DNA of 23,623 nucleotides, taken from positions 1 to 23,623 of IMG/VR virus record IMGVR_UViG_3300032092_000263, one strand, 5' to 3'. A program made the translations under genes and the position numbers. The notes below the pieces were generated by a model. It was not told where the DNA came from, made no database searches, and was given only the letters and a program-made list of their open reading frames with translations. This DNA comes from a virus. Below are positions 6,253 to 20,597 of the stretch, piece after piece (within the stretch, counting starts at the first letter, position 1; each line of letters starts with the position of its first letter).

Positions 6253-7275
6253 ATGCTATACATTGACAACAAATTTGCAAGTATTCTTGGATCACGTCTA
6301 AGAAACTTTAAACAAAAAAACGATTATCTGTGGAACTATTCTTGCCCAGTATGCGGGGATAGTTCTAAGAATAAATTAAAGGCACGTGGATACATCTACC
6401 GTAAAGGTTCTGATTTATTCGTTCGGTGTCATAACTGCAACTACGGTTCAAATCTTGGTAGCTTAATCAAGTATGTAGATGCTAAACTTTATGATGAGTA
6501 CGTTCTTGAACGCTACAAAGGTGGTGCTAGTAAACACAACGCACACAAAGATGTGGCAGCAATCCTCCCAGAAGAAACCCCAGAAGTATTTCTAGAAGAT
6601 GCTATTCTAGAGAGTTTGGCTCGCCTAGATACGTTAGACATCACACACCCTGCTGTAAAATATTTAATTAAAAGAAAGATTCCAAAACAATATTGGAATC
6701 TACTTTATTTTGCACCTAAGTTTAAAAAGTTTACCAACTCAGTAACACCTAAGTTTCAGGAACCAATTGAAGGTGATCATCCAAGAATGATCATTCCGTT
6801 TTTTAACCCAGCAGGTAAATGTTTTGCTTATCAAGGTAGAGCGTATGGCGATGAGCAACCCAAGTACTATACAATTAAAGTTGATGAAACACAGGAGAAA
6901 ATATATGGACTCGATCGCTTGGATTATAGCAAACGCATATACGTTGTTGAAGGACCAATTGATTCGTTATTCTTACCGAATTCAATTGCTGTTTCAGGAG
7001 CAAGTTTTGATACCCCTACTATTCGGCAGTTACTTACTAATGCAACGATTGTAATGGACAATGAACCCCGCAATAAAGATATAGCAAGACAACTTGAAAA
7101 ATATATCGATTTGGGGTATAATGTAGTTATGTATCCTGATTCAGTTCAGGAAAAAGATATTAACGATATGGTTTTATCGGGTAGATCGCCTGATGAAATT
7201 CTAGAACTCATAAATACCAATACCTTCACTGGTATGGAAGCGAAATTAAAATATGCGAATTGGAGAAAGAATTGA
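6253..7275 (+). CDS. 61: DNA primase, T4 gp61-like
   Basis: A 340-residue protein, almost the same length as T4 gp61. The N-terminal zinc-binding module has Cys31-x-x-Cys34 (SCPVCGDSS) and Cys59-x-x-Cys62 (VRCHNCNYGS), as in phage primases that read trinucleotide start sites. A TOPRIM-type core follows: RIYVVEGPIDSLFL supplies the acidic Glu, and TIVMDNEPRNKD the acidic segment. It makes RNA primers for lagging-strand synthesis together with a gp41-type helicase, which is not in this window. ATG 6253 has GTGGGG upstream. Its stop overlaps the TTG start of thyX, placing it at the head of the nucleotide/replication operon. Confidence 0.92.
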   Translation: MLYIDNKFASILGSRLRNFKQKNDYLWNYSCPVCGDSSKNKLKARGYIYRKGSDLFVRCHNCNYGSNLGSLIKYVDAKLYDEYVLERYKGGASKHNAHKDVAAILPEETPEVFLEDAILESLARLDTLDITHPAVKYLIKRKIPKQYWNLLYFAPKFKKFTNSVTPKFQEPIEGDHPRMIIPFFNPAGKCFAYQGRAYGDEQPKYYTIKVDETQEKIYGLDRLDYSKRIYVVEGPIDSLFLPNSIAVSGASFDTPTIRQLLTNATIVMDNEPRNKDIARQLEKYIDLGYNVVMYPDSVQEKDINDMVLSGRSPDEILELINTNTFTGMEAKLKYANWRKN

Positions 7276-7952
7276 AAGTCAATTTAATTAGTTATAGTAA
7301 GCCCTCCATTACCATGTATGAAGAAGGTCTCAAAGATGCTCAAGAACTCATAGCTTATTGCGCACGAGTTTCTAATCCAAGCAATCAATTTAATGTTGAA
7401 ACAGCTGACAAGCTAATTCGTTATCTAATTAAACACAAACACTGGTCACCACTAGAAATGGTTAGTGCTTGTCTCGAAATTGAAACAACTCGAGATATTG
7501 CTCGCCAAATTTTACGCCATCGCTCTTTTAGTTTTCAAGAATTCAGCCAACGCTACGCAGATCCAACTAAGGACTTATCATTTGTCTTAAGAGAAGCAAG
7601 ACTCCAAGACGAAAAGAATCGTCAAAATAGTGTAGAGTTACCAGCCACAATTGCTGGGCAGAATATTGCTGAAGAGTGGTATGCTAGACAAAGAGAAATT
7701 CTAGCATTAGTGACAAAAACGTATGACTGGGCAATCTCACAAGGTATTGCTAAAGAACAAGCAAGAGCAATTCTACCAGAAGGAAATACAGTTAGTCGTT
7801 TATACATGAACGGTACACTGCGTAGTTGGATACACTACATCGAGTTGCGCAGTGGTAATGGTACACAAAAAGAACATGTGGAAGTAGCAAGGGAATGTGC
7901 TAAAGTTATTGCTGAAGCATTTCCAATGTCTACGGATTTTATTAATCAATAA
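7272..7952 (+). CDS. thyX: Flavin-dependent thymidylate synthase ThyX
   Basis: A 226-residue protein that makes dTMP from dUMP using methylene-tetrahydrofolate, FAD and NADPH. The ThyX signature RHRSFSFQEFSQRY lies at residues 82-95 and fits RHR-x7-S. The usual Asn is replaced by Gln. The C-terminal LRSWIHYIELRSGNGTQKE matches the family's substrate-binding region. The best start is TTG 7272: GGAG lies six bases upstream and the TTG overlaps the primase stop as TTGA. A TTG at 7260 would add four residues but has no ribosome binding site. Placement before nrdA fits joint dNTP supply. Confidence 0.95.
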   Translation: MKVNLISYSKPSITMYEEGLKDAQELIAYCARVSNPSNQFNVETADKLIRYLIKHKHWSPLEMVSACLEIETTRDIARQILRHRSFSFQEFSQRYADPTKDLSFVLREARLQDEKNRQNSVELPATIAGQNIAEEWYARQREILALVTKTYDWAISQGIAKEQARAILPEGNTVSRLYMNGTLRSWIHYIELRSGNGTQKEHVEVARECAKVIAEAFPMSTDFINQ

Positions 7953-7971
7953 GAAATATAACAGGAAGTTT

Positions 7972-9771
7972 ATGGAAAATATTGTGCATGGCATAAAGGT
8001 TGATTATTCTCGTGATGCGTTGTTTGACGAACTAGGAAGAATAAGATTAAAAGAAAGTTACATGAAAGATGACGAAACATCTCCTCAAGAAAGATTTGCT
8101 TTTGTTAGTAGTAAGTTTGGTAGTGATCCTGCCCATGCTCAAAGGTTGTATGACTACTCCAGTAGACACTGGTTGTCTTATTCTACCCCAATCCTCAGTT
8201 TCGGGAGGAGTAAACGTGGTTTGCCGATCTCATGTTTTTTAAATTATATTGAAGATACAGCGGAGGGTTTAGTTGATAATCTTAGTGAAACTAATTGGCT
8301 TAGTATGCTTGGTGGTGGCGTTGGTATCGGTTTTGGTATACGTTCGGCAGACGATAAGAGCACTGGCGTTATGCCGCACCTCAAGATGTACGATGCATCA
8401 AGTTTGGCTTATCGCCAAGGTCGTACTCGTCGTGGATCTTATGCTGCTTACCTTGATATTAGTCATCCAGATATTATAAATTTCTTGGAGATGCGTAAAC
8501 CAACAGGTGACCAGAATATGCGTTGCTTGAACTTGCACCATGGTATTAACATTCCAGATGCATTTATGGAATTAGTTGAGCAATCTATGATTGACCCAAA
8601 TTTCGATGACTCTTGGAATCTAGTTGACCCAGCATCAAACGAAATTCGTGAAACTGTTTCAGCCAAAGAAATGTGGCAACGTATTCTAGAAATGCGTATG
8701 ATGACAGGTGAACCATACATACACTTTATTGATGAATCAAATCGTAAACTTCCACAGTGGTTAAAGGATAAAGGTTTAAAGGTTCATCAATCAAATCTAT
8801 GTTCAGAGATTATTCTACCAACAGATGAAAAGCGTACTGCTGTTTGTTGCTTGTCATCACTAAACTTGGAGTATTACGATGAGTGGAAAACAGATCCTCT
8901 TTTCCTTGCTGATATTGCAGAAATGCTTGACAATGTTCTTCAGTATTTTATTGATAATGCACCTTCCACCATCAAAAGAGCTAAATATTCCGCCATGCGT
9001 GAGCGAAGTATCGGCATCGGTGCGTTGGGTTGGCATGCCTACTTGCAGAAAAACAAGTTACCTTGGGAATCACCAATGGCAATTGGTCGCAACAAACAAA
9101 TCTTTACACACATAAGAGGAAAGTTAGATGAGGCAAACAAATTATTGGGATCTAAGCGTGGTGAAGCGTTGGACGCAGTGGGTACTGGGAATCGCTTTAG
9201 TCATCTTATGGCTATTGCTCCCAATGCTTCTTCTTCCATTCTCATGGGCAATACTAGTCCTAGTATTGAACCTTACCGTGCCAATGCTTATCGCCAAGAC
9301 ACTCTATCGGGTTCTCACCTAAATAAAAATCGCTTCTTAGATATTATTATTCAAGAAGAATCCCAGAAAAATAAAGAAGGTTGGGCAGATGATGTTTGGC
9401 GTAGCATTATTGCCAATGATGGTTCTGTTCAGCATCTCGATTGGATGGATCAGTGGACTAAAGATGTTTATAAAACATCAATGGAGATTGATCAGCGTTG
9501 GGTAGTTCAGCATGCTGCAGATCGTCAAGAGTTTATTGACCAAGCCCAATCACTAAACGTATTCTTCAGACCAGACTCACACATTAAATACATTCATGCT
9601 GTTCACTTTATGGCTTGGAAATTAAAGCTAAAGACGATGTACTACTGCCGTTCTGATAAGATCGCAAAAGCGGATAAAGTTAGTAAGCGTATTGAACGTG
9701 AGGTTATCAAAGAAATCAATCTCCATGCACTAACTGGTGACGCAGATACTTGCTTAGCCTGCGAAGGATAA
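7972..9771 (+). CDS. nrdA: Class I ribonucleotide reductase large subunit NrdA
   Basis: A 599-residue protein that reduces ribonucleoside diphosphates to deoxy forms. Visible catalytic residues are Cys88 (LPISCFLN), the active-site triad in SNLCSEI (Asn275, Cys277, Glu279), a second redox Cys in VCCLSSLN (292 or 293), the radical-transfer Tyr557-Tyr558 (TMYYCRS), and the C-terminal thioredoxin-reactive pair C594-x-x-C597. It is far shorter than E. coli or T4 NrdA (about 750-760). The N-terminal ATP-cone used for allosteric activity control is absent, as expected for an enzyme free of dATP shut-off. AGGAAG precedes ATG 7972. It pairs with nrdB two genes downstream. Confidence 0.96.
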   Translation: MENIVHGIKVDYSRDALFDELGRIRLKESYMKDDETSPQERFAFVSSKFGSDPAHAQRLYDYSSRHWLSYSTPILSFGRSKRGLPISCFLNYIEDTAEGLVDNLSETNWLSMLGGGVGIGFGIRSADDKSTGVMPHLKMYDASSLAYRQGRTRRGSYAAYLDISHPDIINFLEMRKPTGDQNMRCLNLHHGINIPDAFMELVEQSMIDPNFDDSWNLVDPASNEIRETVSAKEMWQRILEMRMMTGEPYIHFIDESNRKLPQWLKDKGLKVHQSNLCSEIILPTDEKRTAVCCLSSLNLEYYDEWKTDPLFLADIAEMLDNVLQYFIDNAPSTIKRAKYSAMRERSIGIGALGWHAYLQKNKLPWESPMAIGRNKQIFTHIRGKLDEANKLLGSKRGEALDAVGTGNRFSHLMAIAPNASSSILMGNTSPSIEPYRANAYRQDTLSGSHLNKNRFLDIIIQEESQKNKEGWADDVWRSIIANDGSVQHLDWMDQWTKDVYKTSMEIDQRWVVQHAADRQEFIDQAQSLNVFFRPDSHIKYIHAVHFMAWKLKLKTMYYCRSDKIAKADKVSKRIEREVIKEINLHALTGDADTCLACEG

Positions 9772-9963: not shown

Positions 9964-10953
9964 ATGGTAAAGACTAAAACAAAAATGACAGATGAACGTA
10001 GCTACTTTAAGCCGTTCAACTATCCATGGGCATACGAAGCATGGTTAAAGCACGAACAAGCACATTGGTTGCACACAGAAGTACCAATGATGGAAGACGT
10101 TAAGCAATGGAAGAAAAGTTTAACACCACACGAGAAAACATTCTTGACAAACATCTTTCGTTTCTTTACGCAAGGTGACATTGACGTAGCTGGTGGATAT
10201 GTAAAGAACTACTTACCATACTTCCCACAACCAGAAGTACGTATGATGCTAATGGGTTTTGCTGCACGTGAAGCACTACACATTGCTGCGTATTCACATC
10301 TAATTGAAACACTTGGTTTACCTGAGATTACATATTCTCAGTTTATGGAATACCAAGAGATGAAAGACAAGCACGATTACGTTCTTGATATTTCTTCTAA
10401 GAATGGCACTATTGAATCAACTGCTACTCACATTGCGGTATTCTCTGCCTTTACTGAAGGTATGCAATTATTCTCTTCATTCATTATGTTGTTGAACTTC
10501 CCACGTCATGGATTGATGAAGGGGATGGGACAGATTGTTACTTGGAGTATTGTTGATGAAACAATGCACGCTGAGAATATGATGAAGTTGTTTAAAGAAT
10601 ACATCAAAGAAAATCCAGAGATCTGGGGTGATGATCTAAAAGGTAAGATTTATACAATCGCTGAAAAGATGGTTCAGTTGGAAGATAAGTTTATTGATCT
10701 GGCATTTGCTGAAGGCGAGATGCGTGATCTTAAGCCAGAAGATGTTAAGACTTATATTCGTTATATCGCAGATCGTCGTTTAATTGGTCTTGGTATGAAA
10801 GGTATCTTTAAAGTTAAAAAGAATCCACTACCATGGGTTGAAGAAATGATCAATGCACCTGTTCACGGTAACTTCTTTGAGAATCGTGTAACAGATTACG
10901 CTAAAGGTGCATTGTCTGGTTCTTGGGATGACGTTTGGGGAGCAGCTGCTTAA
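9964..10953 (+). CDS. nrdB: Class I ribonucleotide reductase small subunit NrdB
   Basis: A 329-residue ferritin-like protein that holds the metal cofactor and radical needed by NrdA. Aligned by eye with E. coli NrdB, the ligands are all present: Asp72 (TQGD), Glu103-x-x-His106 (REALH), the radical Tyr110 (AAYSH), a Glu in FTEGMQ, and the Glu-x-x-His pair in VDETMHAE. The offset of 12 residues is constant for Asp72, Glu103, His106 and Tyr110. It is therefore a Tyr-radical type, not a Tyr-less subclass. The start follows the previous stop by one base with AAGGAA upstream. Its stop overlaps the aldolase start (TAATG). Confidence 0.96.
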   Translation: MVKTKTKMTDERSYFKPFNYPWAYEAWLKHEQAHWLHTEVPMMEDVKQWKKSLTPHEKTFLTNIFRFFTQGDIDVAGGYVKNYLPYFPQPEVRMMLMGFAAREALHIAAYSHLIETLGLPEITYSQFMEYQEMKDKHDYVLDISSKNGTIESTATHIAVFSAFTEGMQLFSSFIMLLNFPRHGLMKGMGQIVTWSIVDETMHAENMMKLFKEYIKENPEIWGDDLKGKIYTIAEKMVQLEDKFIDLAFAEGEMRDLKPEDVKTYIRYIADRRLIGLGMKGIFKVKKNPLPWVEEMINAPVHGNFFENRVTDYAKGALSGSWDDVWGAAA

Positions 10954-11618
10954 TGTTAGAAACTATATGTGACACAATGCTGGATGCTTACAAGCGTAAC
11001 TGGATTACCAGTCGTGACGGTAATGTAAGCATTCGACATCACGATCGTGATCATTTTTATATTACGCCAAGTGGTGTGCGTAAGCAGACTATGCAGCCTG
11101 ATCAGTTTAAAAAGATTATAATTAAACCACCAATGTCGTGGAATGAACCAAAGACTGGATTGATTGCAGAACGCTGGGGATGGAAAGAAGATAATTATAC
11201 TGAGATCAGTGGAAATTTAAAACCTAGTGGAGAAATCCCATTACACTTTGGTTTACAAAAACAAATGGGTCAACACAGTAATGATGTTCGTGTAGTTATG
11301 CACTTTCATCCAACTTACTGTGTTGCTGCTATGCACGCTGGTATTGAACTGGGTGATATCGCAAATGATTTCCCAGAACTAAGTAGATATACTAAAGTAG
11401 CAAAGAATGTGCCTGATGTTCCACCAATCTCTCAAGAATTAGCTGATCACTGCCATCGTAACTTGGAGTTAGATGATAGCGGTAATATCGCATATGATAT
11501 TGTTGGTATTAAGGGACATGGAGTAGTTTCCATTGACACTAGCCCATGGCGTGCTTATGAACACATTGAACGTCTTGAACACATTTGCAAGATAGTACTT
11601 GCATCTAGAAAATACTAA
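10953..11618 (+). CDS. Class II aldolase/adducin-family enzyme
   Basis: A 221-residue protein with the family's zinc site: Glu94 in PSGEIPLH, His117 and His119 in MHFHPTYC, and His189 in IKGHGVVSI. This matches the Glu, HxH, His order in L-fuculose-1-phosphate aldolase, L-ribulose-5-phosphate 4-epimerase and methylthioribulose-1-phosphate dehydratase. TSRDGNVSIR near residue 19 is also typical. These enzymes cleave, epimerise or dehydrate sugar phosphates; the substrate here cannot be read off. A non-enzymatic adducin-like role is unlikely, as all metal ligands are present. It is translationally coupled to nrdB, which suggests a tie to pentose or nucleotide metabolism. Confidence 0.85.
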   Translation: MLETICDTMLDAYKRNWITSRDGNVSIRHHDRDHFYITPSGVRKQTMQPDQFKKIIIKPPMSWNEPKTGLIAERWGWKEDNYTEISGNLKPSGEIPLHFGLQKQMGQHSNDVRVVMHFHPTYCVAAMHAGIELGDIANDFPELSRYTKVAKNVPDVPPISQELADHCHRNLELDDSGNIAYDIVGIKGHGVVSIDTSPWRAYEHIERLEHICKIVLASRKY

Positions 11619-16985: not shown

Positions 16986-17225
16986 ATGATTATTACTTAC
17001 AAAGAAGCACAATTAGCAACTGAACATTTTGATAAGAGTCATGGATCGTTTTTCGATCGTGGTTCTGCAGATTCTTACTACCATCGTCCACGTGACCCAC
17101 ATCGTGGTGGTGTTGGTGGTATGTCTGGTCCTAGAATTGATGCTGTGCGTGAAGCAGACATAGAAGCATACCACGCTGGCTATGATTACAATGAACAATT
17201 TGGTGACAAGAAAAGCTGGGATTAA
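16986..17225 (+). CDS. Conserved phage protein with HGSxFDRGSADSYY motif
   Basis: A 79-residue protein. SHGSFFDRGSADSYYHRPRD and the C-terminal AYHAGYDYNEQFGDKKSW are highly characteristic; I recall this motif pair in many phages of aquatic bacteria, with no known function. ATG 16986 follows the previous stop by one base and has GGAGCTTG upstream. A frame extending back to 16923 would overlap the previous gene by 62 bases and is not needed. The Gly/His/Arg-rich centre (HRGGVGGMSG) is likely flexible. Confidence 0.75.
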   Translation: MIITYKEAQLATEHFDKSHGSFFDRGSADSYYHRPRDPHRGGVGGMSGPRIDAVREADIEAYHAGYDYNEQFGDKKSWD

Positions 17226-17243
17226 TTTCTTGCATAATTTAAT

Positions 17244-17272
17244 TTTACTTTAAACTAGAAAGAATGTATAAT
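17244..17272 (+). promoter_or_regulatory. Early sigma70-like promoter
   Basis: TTTACT at 17244-17249, a 17-base spacer, and TATAAT at 17267-17272. The predicted start near 17279 lies inside the small gene whose ATG is at 17264, so this promoter can only serve the gene at 17388 and those after it. Confidence 0.65.
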
Positions 17273-18103: not shown

Positions 18104-18382
18104 ATGAGTATTTCCTCAATTGAAGATCGTAAAAAGATTTTTGGTGCCATCCGTGAGATTAGTAATTCTATGGTTCGCATCGAAGCAGAACGTGATCTAA
18201 TCAAAGACATCGTGAAAGATGTTTCTGATAATTATCAACTTTCTCGTAAAGTTGTAAATAAGATGGCTAAAGTTTATCATAAACAATCACTATCTCAAAC
18301 TGTTGCTGAACACGAAGAGTTTGTAGACATGTATGACCAAGTAACCAGTGCGAATAATACCAACACTGCACCCAACCCATAA
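18104..18382 (+). CDS. dsbA: DsbA-like double-stranded DNA-binding protein
   Basis: A 92-residue helical protein, nearly the same size as T4 DsbA (89). Shared features, as I recall the T4 protein, are LIKDI in the middle, the motif YHK near residue 58, and the acidic E-x-E-E-x-V-x-x-x-Y-D-x-V near the end. T4 DsbA binds DNA near late promoters and enhances late transcription in vitro. ATG 18104 follows the previous stop by two bases. Its last 35 bases overlap the GTG start of the next gene, linking it to the metabolic cassette. Confidence 0.72.
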   Translation: MSISSIEDRKKIFGAIREISNSMVRIEAERDLIKDIVKDVSDNYQLSRKVVNKMAKVYHKQSLSQTVAEHEEFVDMYDQVTSANNTNTAPNP

Positions 18383-18950
18383 GTACAAGTTACTTTATGT
18401 TTCTGGATACGCTCAGGAGGGTGATGGTACATTCGATGCTTTATTCTCAAAGACAACTATAACAGATAATTTTAAAGAACTTTTCTATAAAAATGAAATA
18501 GAAACATATGCGTGTGAGTTTAGTAAAACAGACACGCATTTTTCAGTGTATCATAAATGTAGAGAATTTGTTATAAAGAATAAAATTGATTTTGTCTTTG
18601 GTTTTTGCTATGGATCGTTTCCGTCTTTATACTCTGCCATAGATAGTAGTGTAAAAGGTGTTATTCTTTTAGATACTTCTACTATTCCTCCTGTTTGGTC
18701 TAATCGGGGAATTACCTCAAACTTAACAAAACCAATTCCGCCAATTAAACTGGATAGTATAACATGTCCTGTTAAATTATTTTATTCAGAGTGGGGAGTT
18801 AATAATAAGATTAATACCTTTAATAAATTACAAACTGAGTTTATTAAAACACTTGACGTTGAAGTCATCCCAAATAGTACACATGCTATTATGCTTGAAC
18901 CACAACGATATATCTTAATGGATAAAATAATGGAGTTTATAAATGCTTGA
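18348..18950 (+). CDS. Alpha/beta hydrolase-like protein with Cys at the nucleophile elbow
   Basis: A 200-residue protein. The beta strand-turn-helix elbow reads DFVFGFCYGSFPSL, fitting G-x-Nuc-x-G with Cys87 in place of the usual Ser. NSTHAIML near the C-terminus supplies the probable catalytic His, and VKLFYSEWGVNNK the strand that usually bears the acid. Cys-type members include dienelactone hydrolase, but the size and cap here do not single out a family. The only usable start is GTG 18348, since no ATG occurs before the conserved LLYVSGY strand. It is therefore coupled to dsbA and overlaps the transaminase by eight bases. Substrate unknown. Confidence 0.7.
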   Translation: MRIIPTLHPTHKYKLLYVSGYAQEGDGTFDALFSKTTITDNFKELFYKNEIETYACEFSKTDTHFSVYHKCREFVIKNKIDFVFGFCYGSFPSLYSAIDSSVKGVILLDTSTIPPVWSNRGITSNLTKPIPPIKLDSITCPVKLFYSEWGVNNKINTFNKLQTEFIKTLDVEVIPNSTHAIMLEPQRYILMDKIMEFINA

Positions 18951-19761
18951 CTATCCAGCTTGGAAAAATGGTAAGTACTGTAAAGTTAAAGATCTGACCG
19001 TATCAGTTCTTGATTTTGGTTTGATTCATTGTGATGCTACATATGATGTTCTTGCCGTTAAAAATGGCGAGATACAAAATCTCGAAGCACACCTGAGTAG
19101 ATTTATTAACAGTTCACAGGGGTGGCGCATTCCAGTTGAATACTCTGATAATGATATTGAGATTGTAATTCAAACACTGGTGGCTATTGCTCCAACTGAT
19201 GATCTATTAGTTTGGATTGGTTTAACACGTGGAACACCTACATCTGGCAATCCAAGAGATCTAGACAGTTGTAAACCTAATTTGTTTATATACGTTAAAC
19301 CTTACTATGGTTTCAACAAGGATAACACAGCAACTGTTTGTTTGGCTAAACAATTACGCAATACTGCCATTGATCAAACAATGAAGAACTTTGCATGGAA
19401 TGATTTAAACCTTGCACAGTGGGAAGCAATTGATCGTGGTTATGATACAGCTGTGCTAATAGACCATAGAGGTTTCTTAACTGAAGGTCCAGGATTTAAT
19501 ATGGGTATTGTCCGTGACGGTAAAGTTTATGCCCCAAAGCAAAATCGCCTGGAAGGCACAGTTATGAAACTTGTTGAACAGTTATGTGTGGAAAATAACG
19601 TACAGTTTAGTTGGGCTGCAATATCACCTGAGGATTGTCTTGATGCAGATGCTATGTTTTTAACATCAACTGCTGGTAATGTTATTGCAGTAAAGTGTTT
19701 TGAAAATAAATATTTTAATGATAATGAGATTTTAAAATGGTTACAACAGAAGTTAGTCTAG
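18943..19761 (+). CDS. Class IV PLP-dependent aminotransferase
   Basis: A 272-residue protein of fold-type IV. HCDATYDV (residues 29-36), the phosphate-side Arg53 in HLSRF, the probable Schiff-base Lys148 in MKNFAWNDL, and TEGPGFN (Glu181, Asn186) line up with branched-chain, D-amino-acid and (R)-amine transaminases. The D-x-TYDV and KNxxWxDL pattern is closest to (R)-selective amine transaminases and bacterial relatives, as I recall those sequences. The usual G-I-T-R segment that contacts the PLP phosphate reads G205-T-V-M. It overlaps both flanking hydrolase genes. The donor and acceptor are unknown; aminodeoxychorismate lyase is an alternative. Confidence 0.88.
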   Translation: MLDYPAWKNGKYCKVKDLTVSVLDFGLIHCDATYDVLAVKNGEIQNLEAHLSRFINSSQGWRIPVEYSDNDIEIVIQTLVAIAPTDDLLVWIGLTRGTPTSGNPRDLDSCKPNLFIYVKPYYGFNKDNTATVCLAKQLRNTAIDQTMKNFAWNDLNLAQWEAIDRGYDTAVLIDHRGFLTEGPGFNMGIVRDGKVYAPKQNRLEGTVMKLVEQLCVENNVQFSWAAISPEDCLDADAMFLTSTAGNVIAVKCFENKYFNDNEILKWLQQKLV

Positions 19762-20534
19762 AACAAAACAAACATCTATTATTCCTACTACCAGGACAAA
19801 GTTTATCGCCACGTGTTTTCTGGGATTTTAAACTACCAGATGGTTACACGCATATAGATTATTTTCTTGCAGCAGGTATAGATGTAATCTTATTTGATCC
19901 ATGCGGTTATGGAGAGAGTACTGAGAATTATCAGTACGATAGGCTTGGGTATGCAGACCAGATTGAATCTGCAATCAAAGAACTTAAGAAAGAATATGTT
20001 TCTAAAACTGTATTTGGTTTCTCTACATCAACTGCTCCTGCATTGATTGCTGGTGAGAGAGGTTTATTTGATAAAGTTATTATTCATAGTCCATCTGTTC
20101 GTATGGATAAACGGTATTATGTTGAGTTTGACACTGAGCACTTTGAGACTGGTATCGAAAAACTTAAAAAAGAAAGACTTGAGAAGATTAGTGATAAGTT
20201 GATTGGTACACCAAATAGAATTGACGGATGGGAGCAAAAGATTGTTGACGTTATTGGCAGCACTACTTGGAAAGTTCCATCGCAACCTGTTTATGATATA
20301 AACAATTACTGGGTTGATACAGGACAGTTAGGGTTCGATCCTGCAAAGGTTCCACCGATCTTAAGCATTATTGGTGAGTATGACTATGAATCAACCACAG
20401 GTGGTTATGATACCTTTAAGGAACTATTCCCTCAATCCAAGGAAGTCATTATTCCTCAGTCTACCCATTTTTCTATGTGGGAAAATTCCTCTGCCCTAAC
20501 TCGTTTGGAGATGATCCAATGGGTCTTGCAATAA
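19737..20534 (+). CDS. Alpha/beta hydrolase-fold protein
   Basis: A 265-residue protein with the fold's landmarks in order: the oxyanion-side strand LLFLLPGQSLS, DVILFDPCGYGES (the D-x-x-G-x-G-x-S segment), the nucleophile elbow VFGFSTSTAPA with Ser96, the acid Asp in IIGEYDYES, and His in QSTHFSMWE. The triad is complete; the last elbow Gly is Ser98 instead. An esterase, amidase or thioesterase activity is likely, but the substrate is unknown. It starts inside the transaminase gene (25-base overlap) and ends the three-gene cassette, before a new promoter. It is not an obvious duplicate of the first hydrolase. Confidence 0.82.
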   Translation: MVTTEVSLEQNKHLLFLLPGQSLSPRVFWDFKLPDGYTHIDYFLAAGIDVILFDPCGYGESTENYQYDRLGYADQIESAIKELKKEYVSKTVFGFSTSTAPALIAGERGLFDKVIIHSPSVRMDKRYYVEFDTEHFETGIEKLKKERLEKISDKLIGTPNRIDGWEQKIVDVIGSTTWKVPSQPVYDINNYWVDTGQLGFDPAKVPPILSIIGEYDYESTTGGYDTFKELFPQSKEVIIPQSTHFSMWENSSALTRLEMIQWVLQ

Positions 20535-20568: not shown

Positions 20569-20597
20569 TTGCCTTTAATTCAAAGGTAGGGTATAAT
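20569..20597 (+). promoter_or_regulatory. Early sigma70-like promoter with inverted repeat in the spacer
   Basis: TTGCCT at 20569-20574, a 17-base spacer, and TATAAT at 20592-20597. CCTTGCCTTT and AAAGGTAGGG form an imperfect 10-bp inverted repeat around AATTC that covers the -35 box and spacer. It could be an operator. The leader carries GGAGG before ATG 20626. Confidence 0.72.

Follow-up and report, generated by a model that had tools for sequence, protein, structure and literature searches.

We examined a 23,623-nucleotide stretch of IMGVR_UViG_3300032092_000263 (hereafter the window, meaning that whole stretch), which comes from a bacterial virus for which only environmental DNA is available. 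Within it lie three enzyme genes, termed here hyd1, AT and hyd2, that follow a DsbA-like gene and are themselves followed by a promoter-like sequence:

18104..18382, + strand: DsbA-like phage transcription protein (PF11126, E 1.4e-14; phrog_639, E 7e-20)
18348..18950, + strand: hyd1, a small alpha/beta-hydrolase of 200 aa with a GTG start (AlphaFold and Foldseek, alignment)
18943..19761, + strand: AT, a pyridoxal phosphate (PLP) fold-type IV aminotransferase, (R)-amine-transaminase-like, 272 aa (PF01063, E 9e-32)
19737..20534, + strand: hyd2, an alpha/beta-hydrolase of 265 aa that overlaps AT (PF00561, E 2.5e-7)
20569..20597, + strand: sigma70-like promoter match located between hyd2 and the gene that follows it (20626), agreeing at 10 of 12 consensus positions

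An earlier reading of this DNA made from the sequence alone (the sequence-only reading) had described three overlapping genes, and its description is correct: the open reading frames (ORFs) are full-length, with overlaps of 8 bases between hyd1 and AT, 25 bases between AT and hyd2, and 35 bases between the DsbA-like ORF and hyd1. The neighbor that it called dsbA is likewise present, with the 35-base overlap, but encodes a phage transcription protein and not a disulfide enzyme. In many of these phages hyd1 has the DsbA-like gene as its upstream neighbor, but we have not taken that gene as a member of the pathway discussed below. The GTG assigned to hyd1 is simply the earliest start codon in frame; for most relatives the alignment begins at about residue 9-12. 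At the other end, the sigma70-like match could indicate where the cassette ends, although the signal is weak, with 20 such sites in the region versus 13.5 ± 4.3 in shuffled sequences. Pairwise ratios of nonsynonymous to synonymous substitution rates (dN/dS), calculated by the simple Nei-Gojobori method from two pairs per gene and with dS above 1 in some of them, were 0.08 and 0.15 for AT, 0.05 and 0.07 for hyd2, and 0.19 and 0.21 for hyd1. Values in this range (0.05-0.21) speak for all three genes encoding functional proteins.

The arrangement recurs well beyond the window. A profile scan for AT returned 40 loci, some of which are near-identical contigs from different samples, and hyd2 was located downstream of AT in 34 of the 36 loci that have at least 900 bases of downstream sequence. 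The end of AT overlaps the start of hyd2, the shared stretch being 22 or 25 bases long in most loci and, in the most divergent (L091, L093-L095), 29 or 32. The two genes stay adjacent and overlapping even where identity has dropped to 47% for AT and 29% for hyd2, and also elsewhere in the genomes. Because the trio is conserved in other viral contigs, because hyd2 follows AT so regularly, and because dN/dS is low, the grouping of these genes goes beyond chance. The stable unit is the AT-hyd2 pair, with hyd1 as an optional third gene. No description of such an aminotransferase-hydrolase pair was found among the best-ranked literature.

The position of hyd1 is less constant. Where at least 700 bases of upstream sequence are available, hyd1 stands directly before AT in 20 of 37 loci, and its absence from that position in the other 17 rules it out as an obligate partner of AT. 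A profile scan for hyd1 itself returned 23 loci, of which 22 contain AT, directly downstream in 21. Beyond that scan, hyd1-like genes without AT were seen before g20626 (the gene that follows hyd2 in the window) in L184-L186, and beside a fusion of the MT1 and MT2 genes, described below, in L330 and L331. Loci carrying g20626 number at least 524; among the best 80, upstream sequence reaches 2 kb or more in 54, and in these the trio is present in 8, hyd1 alone in 2, and neither in 44. The trio is accessory in its lineage. The proposal of the sequence-only reading that the three genes form a joint pathway is thus supported in part: AT and hyd2 stay together across divergent phages and nearly all hyd1 loci contain AT, but hyd1 is often not directly before AT, and the trio as a whole is not constant.

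This patchy distribution, together with an extra ORF that separates AT and hyd2 in three loci (L008, L069, L073), would fit unrelated accessory genes that simply share a hot spot downstream of dsbA. However, a shared hot spot is disfavored by the pair statistics, since AT and hyd2 remain adjacent and overlapping at the low identities given above and at other places in the genome, and we consider this explanation very unlikely.

AT scores 111 bits against the Pfam family Aminotran_4, for which the gathering score is 28.5, and Lys148, Arg53 and Glu181 are kept in all 30 sequences compared; we take these residues to be the catalytic lysine, the phosphate-binding arginine and the glutamate at the pyridine nitrogen, respectively. 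The protein is thus a PLP fold-type IV aminotransferase, which bears out its earlier identification as a class IV transaminase. When the single sequence was searched against the PDB, the top six chains were labelled branched-chain transaminase (BCAT; E 6e-37 to 4e-36); next came (R)-amine transaminases (R-TAs; from 1e-33), D-amino acid transaminases (DAATs; about 1e-14) and E. coli-type IlvE (about 2e-7), with aminodeoxychorismate lyases (2e-6 and 2e-4) near the bottom of the list. A profile of 30 sequences placed an amine transaminase first. AT is closer to R-TAs than to E. coli-type IlvE, D-Ala transaminase or PabC.

Table 1 of PMC8401098 gives HxxxxYD[VT]x[STAHP] as motif 1 of R-TAs and [FY]V[EQAWNS]...[RKFGP]x[STANER] as motif 2. 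Motif 1 in this form is present in the window AT and in 28 of the 30 sequences, one of the two misses being truncated, whereas at motif 2 the window has L-V-W ... G-N-P, which fits at three of five fixed positions in an ungapped alignment. The first motifs of BCATs and of DAATs, as the same table defines them, were each found in none of the 30 sequences. AT, which lacks the alpha-carboxylate motifs seen in DAATs and BCATs, probably acts in the manner of an R-TA. Because motif 2 fits only partly, we describe it as R-TA-like and do not file it as a member of that class. With the (R)-amine:pyruvate transaminases it shares fold type IV, a place among the top PDB matches, motif 1 and the catalytic lysine, but it is shorter, departs from motif 2 (Leu89, Pro104), and carries an invariant Gly102, Pro104 and Arg105.

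The sequence-only reading had also raised a link to folate, in which AT would be an aminodeoxychorismate lyase (PabC) feeding the thymidylate synthase ThyX, and the window does encode ThyX at 7260-7952. NCBIfam PabC models do match AT, with a top E-value of 3e-16, but their scores of 59.5, 55.9 and 51.6 bits fall far short of the cut-offs of 308, 260 and 177. The PabC-type chains lie near the bottom of the PDB list, and the presence of R-TA motif 1, as tabulated, also argues against such an enzyme. The link to ThyX was not sustained: we rejected a folate or PabC role for AT on the NCBIfam cut-offs and the PDB ranking, and regard it as highly improbable.

By fold and catalytic triad, both hyd1 and hyd2 are alpha/beta-hydrolases. 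hyd2 passes the Pfam cut-off for Abhydrolase_1 (31 bits versus 25.8), and its AlphaFold model, with a predicted local distance difference test score (pLDDT) of 92.5, matched monoglyceride lipases, esterases and C-C hydrolases in Foldseek, so that family and predicted fold agree with the earlier assignment of the third gene. Its triad is Ser96-Asp216-His244; among 30 sequences the nucleophile is Ser in 28 and Cys in 2, the acid is Asp in 28 and Glu in 2, and the histidine is constant, while the nucleophile elbow G-x-[SC]-x-[ST] is found in 29. In locus L038 (2735-3528) hyd2 is split over two frames, through either a frameshift or an assembly error. No hyd2 match was found on plasmids or in named phage records. 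AT had matches in six named phage records, at 21-25% identity. Two pattern-based profile scans, covering one bacterial or archaeal genome for each of 84,980 species, yielded no confirmed relative of hyd2 or AT.

hyd1 had no match in Pfam, PHROG or NCBIfam. Its AlphaFold model (pLDDT 85.2) was nevertheless recognized by Foldseek as an alpha/beta-hydrolase, with PDB matches to esterases and MenH at E-values down to 2.4e-8. The nucleophile at position 87 is Cys or Ser in all 15 aligned sequences, and the other triad candidates are Asp109, the putative triad acid, in 15 of 15 and His179 in 14 of 15. The label of Cys-type hydrolase given in the sequence-only reading is right as to the fold and as to the window, which has Cys87, but does not extend to the relatives, in 8 of 15 of which the nucleophile is Ser. 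Both hydrolases fold like enzymes of the MenH, esterase and monoglyceride lipase type, from which they differ in sequence (8-17% identity in the matches listed) and, for hyd1, in a nucleophile that alternates between Cys and Ser.

In five lineages (L085, L089, L076, L087, L096), genes for two small methyltransferases, termed MT1 and MT2, and for a DUF6356 protein are located directly upstream of AT-hyd2. ORFs resembling 2-oxoglutarate (2OG) oxygenases surround the cluster in these lineages, some of them supported by Pfam and some named by eye; in L085, for example, two such ORFs pass the Pfam cut-off and P4Ha, just before AT, has no such match and was named by eye. In four of the five lineages AT-hyd2 is followed within a few kb by genes for a protein of 240 aa and for a PP-loop (AsnS/LarE-like) protein, and in L085 hyd1 comes after the PP-loop gene. 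L085 additionally encodes a TctC-type solute-binding protein (PF03401) at 7760-8683, and further TctC- or TRAP-like proteins were recognized by eye in L255 (4921-5814) and in L103-L106, several of them beside a PP-loop gene.

The same genes are present in the window's own phage, record G001, which is more than 99% identical to the window apart from length differences of 116 and 41 bases; the 116-base stretch missing from G001 corresponds to window positions 17154-17269. Outside the window, G001 contains a PP-loop gene at 46.6-47.8 kb, a 2OG oxygenase above the Pfam cut-off at 52161-52868, and, at 53.5-55.6 kb, MT1-MT2-(162 aa)-DUF6356 in the order seen in the five lineages. Its PP-loop protein is tied to the other clusters by 35% identity and its DUF6356 protein, which is below the Pfam cut-off, by profile. 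ORFs resembling the iron-sulfur assembly proteins IscU and IscA were noted by eye just after the PP-loop gene of this phage (L255, 7775-8770). The sequence-only reading had envisaged a small pathway, perhaps of three steps on one host metabolite; in its place we see a larger set of phage genes, the majority of them located beyond the window.

MT1 and MT2 form a single polypeptide in G002, G003, G004, G005, G015 and G033. In L323, L325 and L328, from records without AT, the order is an MT1-MT2 fusion, a hyd2-like hydrolase gene that the fusion overlaps, an ORF and a PP-loop gene; hyd2-type hydrolases are thereby connected with the pathway even where AT is missing. In a further record without AT (L293, 655-3034) an MT1-MT2 fusion likewise overlaps an alpha/beta-hydrolase gene. 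Two records of 146 and 225 kb (L094, 6001-9758, and L095) combine AT and hyd2 with an ORF of about 430 aa that is PP-loop-like and contains the motif SGGWDS.

To what extent these genes travel together was assessed in 25 virus records searched for AT, MT2 and DUF6356. AT was found in 14. MT2, next to or fused with MT1, was present in 9 of the 14 AT-positive records, G001 included, and in 1 of the 11 AT-negative ones; for DUF6356 the counts were 10 of 14 and 0 of 11. Among records of at least 79.8 kb, DUF6356 was present in 7 of 8 with AT versus 0 of 7 without (Fisher P 0.0014) and MT2 in 6 of 8 versus 1 of 7 (Fisher P 0.04), although these P values ignore shared ancestry and the AT-negative set is non-random, three of its seven members having entered via a PP-loop search. 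The g20626 genes of G025 and G027 are 78% and 76% identical to that of the window, yet both records lack the MT2, DUF6356 and AT set, whereas G004, with only 54% identity, possesses it; this pattern fits joint gain or loss. The PP-loop gene was found in 8 of 16 AT-positive records (one by a short match only) and in 2 of 6 AT-negative records, and its occurrence in the latter led us to reject it, taken alone, as a marker for AT.

MT2 is CmoA-like. It matches TIGR00740 with an E-value of 1.9e-18, below the cut-off, the PDB structures of CmoA/YecO with E-values of about 1e-23, and CmoA in a profile comparison with 99.9% probability and E 1.5e-34; as a CmoA homolog, it is a predicted synthase of carboxy-S-adenosylmethionine (Cx-SAM). 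In E. coli CmoA, Arg199 is described as the key carboxylate contact (PMC3663124). The corresponding column holds Glu, Lys, Gln, Val or Ala in 46 sequences of the MT2 family; all AT-positive ones have Glu, and there is otherwise no clean link with AT. We rejected the idea that this Glu excludes MT2 as a Cx-SAM synthase, since in our alignment the CmoA of Synechococcus phage S-B43 (L352, 4279-4974), reported to be an active synthase (PMC12783734), has Glu in the same column as MT2 of the window phage.

Phage S-B43 provides the closest comparison. There, CmoA makes Cx-SAM, CmoX carboxymethylates cytosine, and the AsnS-type ligase CmoY adds glycine, yielding 5-glycylcarboxymethylcytosine; further phage ligase clusters are described whose amine substrates are unknown (Yang et al. 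2025, PMC12783734). The clusters described here share with that system a CmoA homolog beside a transferase and a PP-loop enzyme. They differ in having MT1 in the place of CmoX, fused to MT2 in several records, in a PP-loop protein that is CmoY-like only around the PP-loop, and in the addition of oxygenases, DUF6356, a transaminase and hydrolases. The main text of PMC12783734 does not use the words aminotransferase, transaminase, hydrolase or dioxygenase, and passages of PMC4360716 do not mention an oxygenase, aminotransferase or hydrolase. MT1 has no meaningful BLAST match to CmoX and weakly matches a PHROG named DNA methyltransferase (E 5e-7). The CmoA/CmoB pathway that forms uridine 5-oxyacetic acid (cmo5U) in E. 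coli tRNA is also related, MT2 being strongly CmoA-like and MT1 weakly CmoB-like. However, the phage proteins are fused or adjacent and are clustered with oxygenases and a PP-loop enzyme, and there is no evidence for a tRNA target.

Our tentative proposal is that AT and hyd2, joined in some phages by hyd1, form an enzyme module that is inherited together and serves a phage modification pathway with the CmoA-like protein at its center. We hold this explanation to be quite possible, if short of probable. From the genes, their folds and catalytic residues, their overlap, co-occurrence and physical linkage we infer the reactions, the order of the steps and the target as follows. MT2 would make Cx-SAM from S-adenosylmethionine and prephenate, and MT1 would move the carboxymethyl group onto a macromolecule, most likely phage DNA. 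The 2OG oxygenases would act on the same product or substrate. The PP-loop enzyme would activate the carboxylate and couple an amine to it, and AT would supply this amine by (R)- or D-type transamination of a carbonyl compound. hyd2 (and hyd1) would hydrolyze an ester, thioester or amide, either to free the substrate of AT or to trim the product. A more specific version of this scheme, which we think rather improbable as it stands, is a new DNA hypermodification: a non-proteinogenic amine made by the phage with its (R)-type transaminase and hydrolase would be coupled by the PP-loop ligase to the carboxymethyl handle installed by a CmoA-linked, non-C5 MT1, and 2OG oxygenases would decorate the product.

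Several observations weigh against a modification pathway of this kind. The linkage of the genes has exceptions, in that AT occurs without hyd2 in L090 and L092, hyd2 occurs in loci without AT in L057-L059 (by profile, the whole record of L059 lacks AT), AT-hyd2 is found without MT2 in G019 and G020, and the AT-positive fragments G006, G007 and G014 also lack MT2. The converse association is weaker, AT being present in only 9 of the 32 MT2 records searched, out of 47 MT2 loci, although many of these records are fragments. The PP-loop gene is present in G025 and G027 without AT and was not found in several AT-positive records. The PP-loop protein of G001 has no Pfam or NCBIfam match, a profile of it aligns with LarE and asparagine synthetase solely in the PP-loop region, and its similarity to CmoY covers only 34 columns. 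The resemblance of MT1 to CmoB is weak (hhalign 71%, E 3.7e-5), and no cytosine C5-methyltransferase of the CmoX type (PF00145) was found in 24 of the 25 records, G010 having a partial match near its end. Lastly, the top NCBIfam models for AT are branched-chain transaminases, all of them far below their cut-offs.

Some of these points would fit a stand-alone auxiliary metabolic module with no CmoA-like link, in which D-amino acids, branched-chain or other host metabolites would be reworked for host takeover or a change of the cell wall. The AT-hyd2 pairs without MT2 in G019 and G020 and the NCBIfam ranking favor such a module, as do the plasmid-borne relatives of AT: among the 25 listed of 145, identities are about 31-36%, the most frequent sources are Sinorhizobium, Azospirillum and Rhizobium, and some are annotated as branched-chain or 2-keto-4-methylthiobutyrate aminotransferase. 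However, motif 1 of DAATs and motif 1 of BCATs, as published, are both missing from AT, and AT clusters with MT1-MT2-DUF6356 in five lineages. We view a stand-alone module as unlikely.

Acyl or beta-keto-acid chemistry is another candidate, and one with genuine support. The hydrolases would then be thioesterases that free a beta-keto acid for conversion by AT to an amine or (R)-beta-amino acid, and this product would modify lipids, glycans or small molecules and not nucleic acid. In G004, G005 and G036 the MT1-MT2 cluster contains a FabG-like short-chain dehydrogenase/reductase (SDR), a beta-keto acid cleavage enzyme (BKACE; PF05853, E 2.6e-87 in G004) and a MaoC-type dehydratase; these genes stand beside the MT1-MT2 fusion in L300 (2775-4411 and 7605-8204), in L302 and L303, and partly in L304. 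G037 encodes the cleavage enzyme together with a distant SDR, a desaturase-like ORF was seen by eye after AT-hyd2-PP-loop in L094, and the resemblance of the hyd2 model to monoglyceride lipases and esterases is in keeping with such a role. However, tblastn of the SDR, BKACE and MaoC proteins against all loci collected here found them only in G004, G005, G036 and G037, of which the last two have no AT match, and none in G001. Acyl chemistry in place of a modification pathway thus seems to us a minority possibility, although an acyl route could also serve as the source of the amine, so that the two explanations are compatible.

Elsewhere in the window, a ferritin-like protein is encoded at 1574-2023, and a class II aldolase-family protein is encoded at 10935-11618, overlapping the end of an ORF at 9964-10953.

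The best description of AT-hyd2(-hyd1) is a conserved sub-module within a broader phage pathway, one related to CmoA-CmoX-CmoY yet distinct from it. If this is true, the carboxymethyl-handle chemistry of a cyanophage would extend to uncultured T4-like phages, and transamination and hydrolysis would join the known chemistry of phage modification. The module would also offer a candidate answer to the question of which amines the uncharacterized phage ligases use, and AT-hyd2 in company with MT1-MT2-DUF6356 would serve as a genetic signature by which such phages may be found and their DNA tested.

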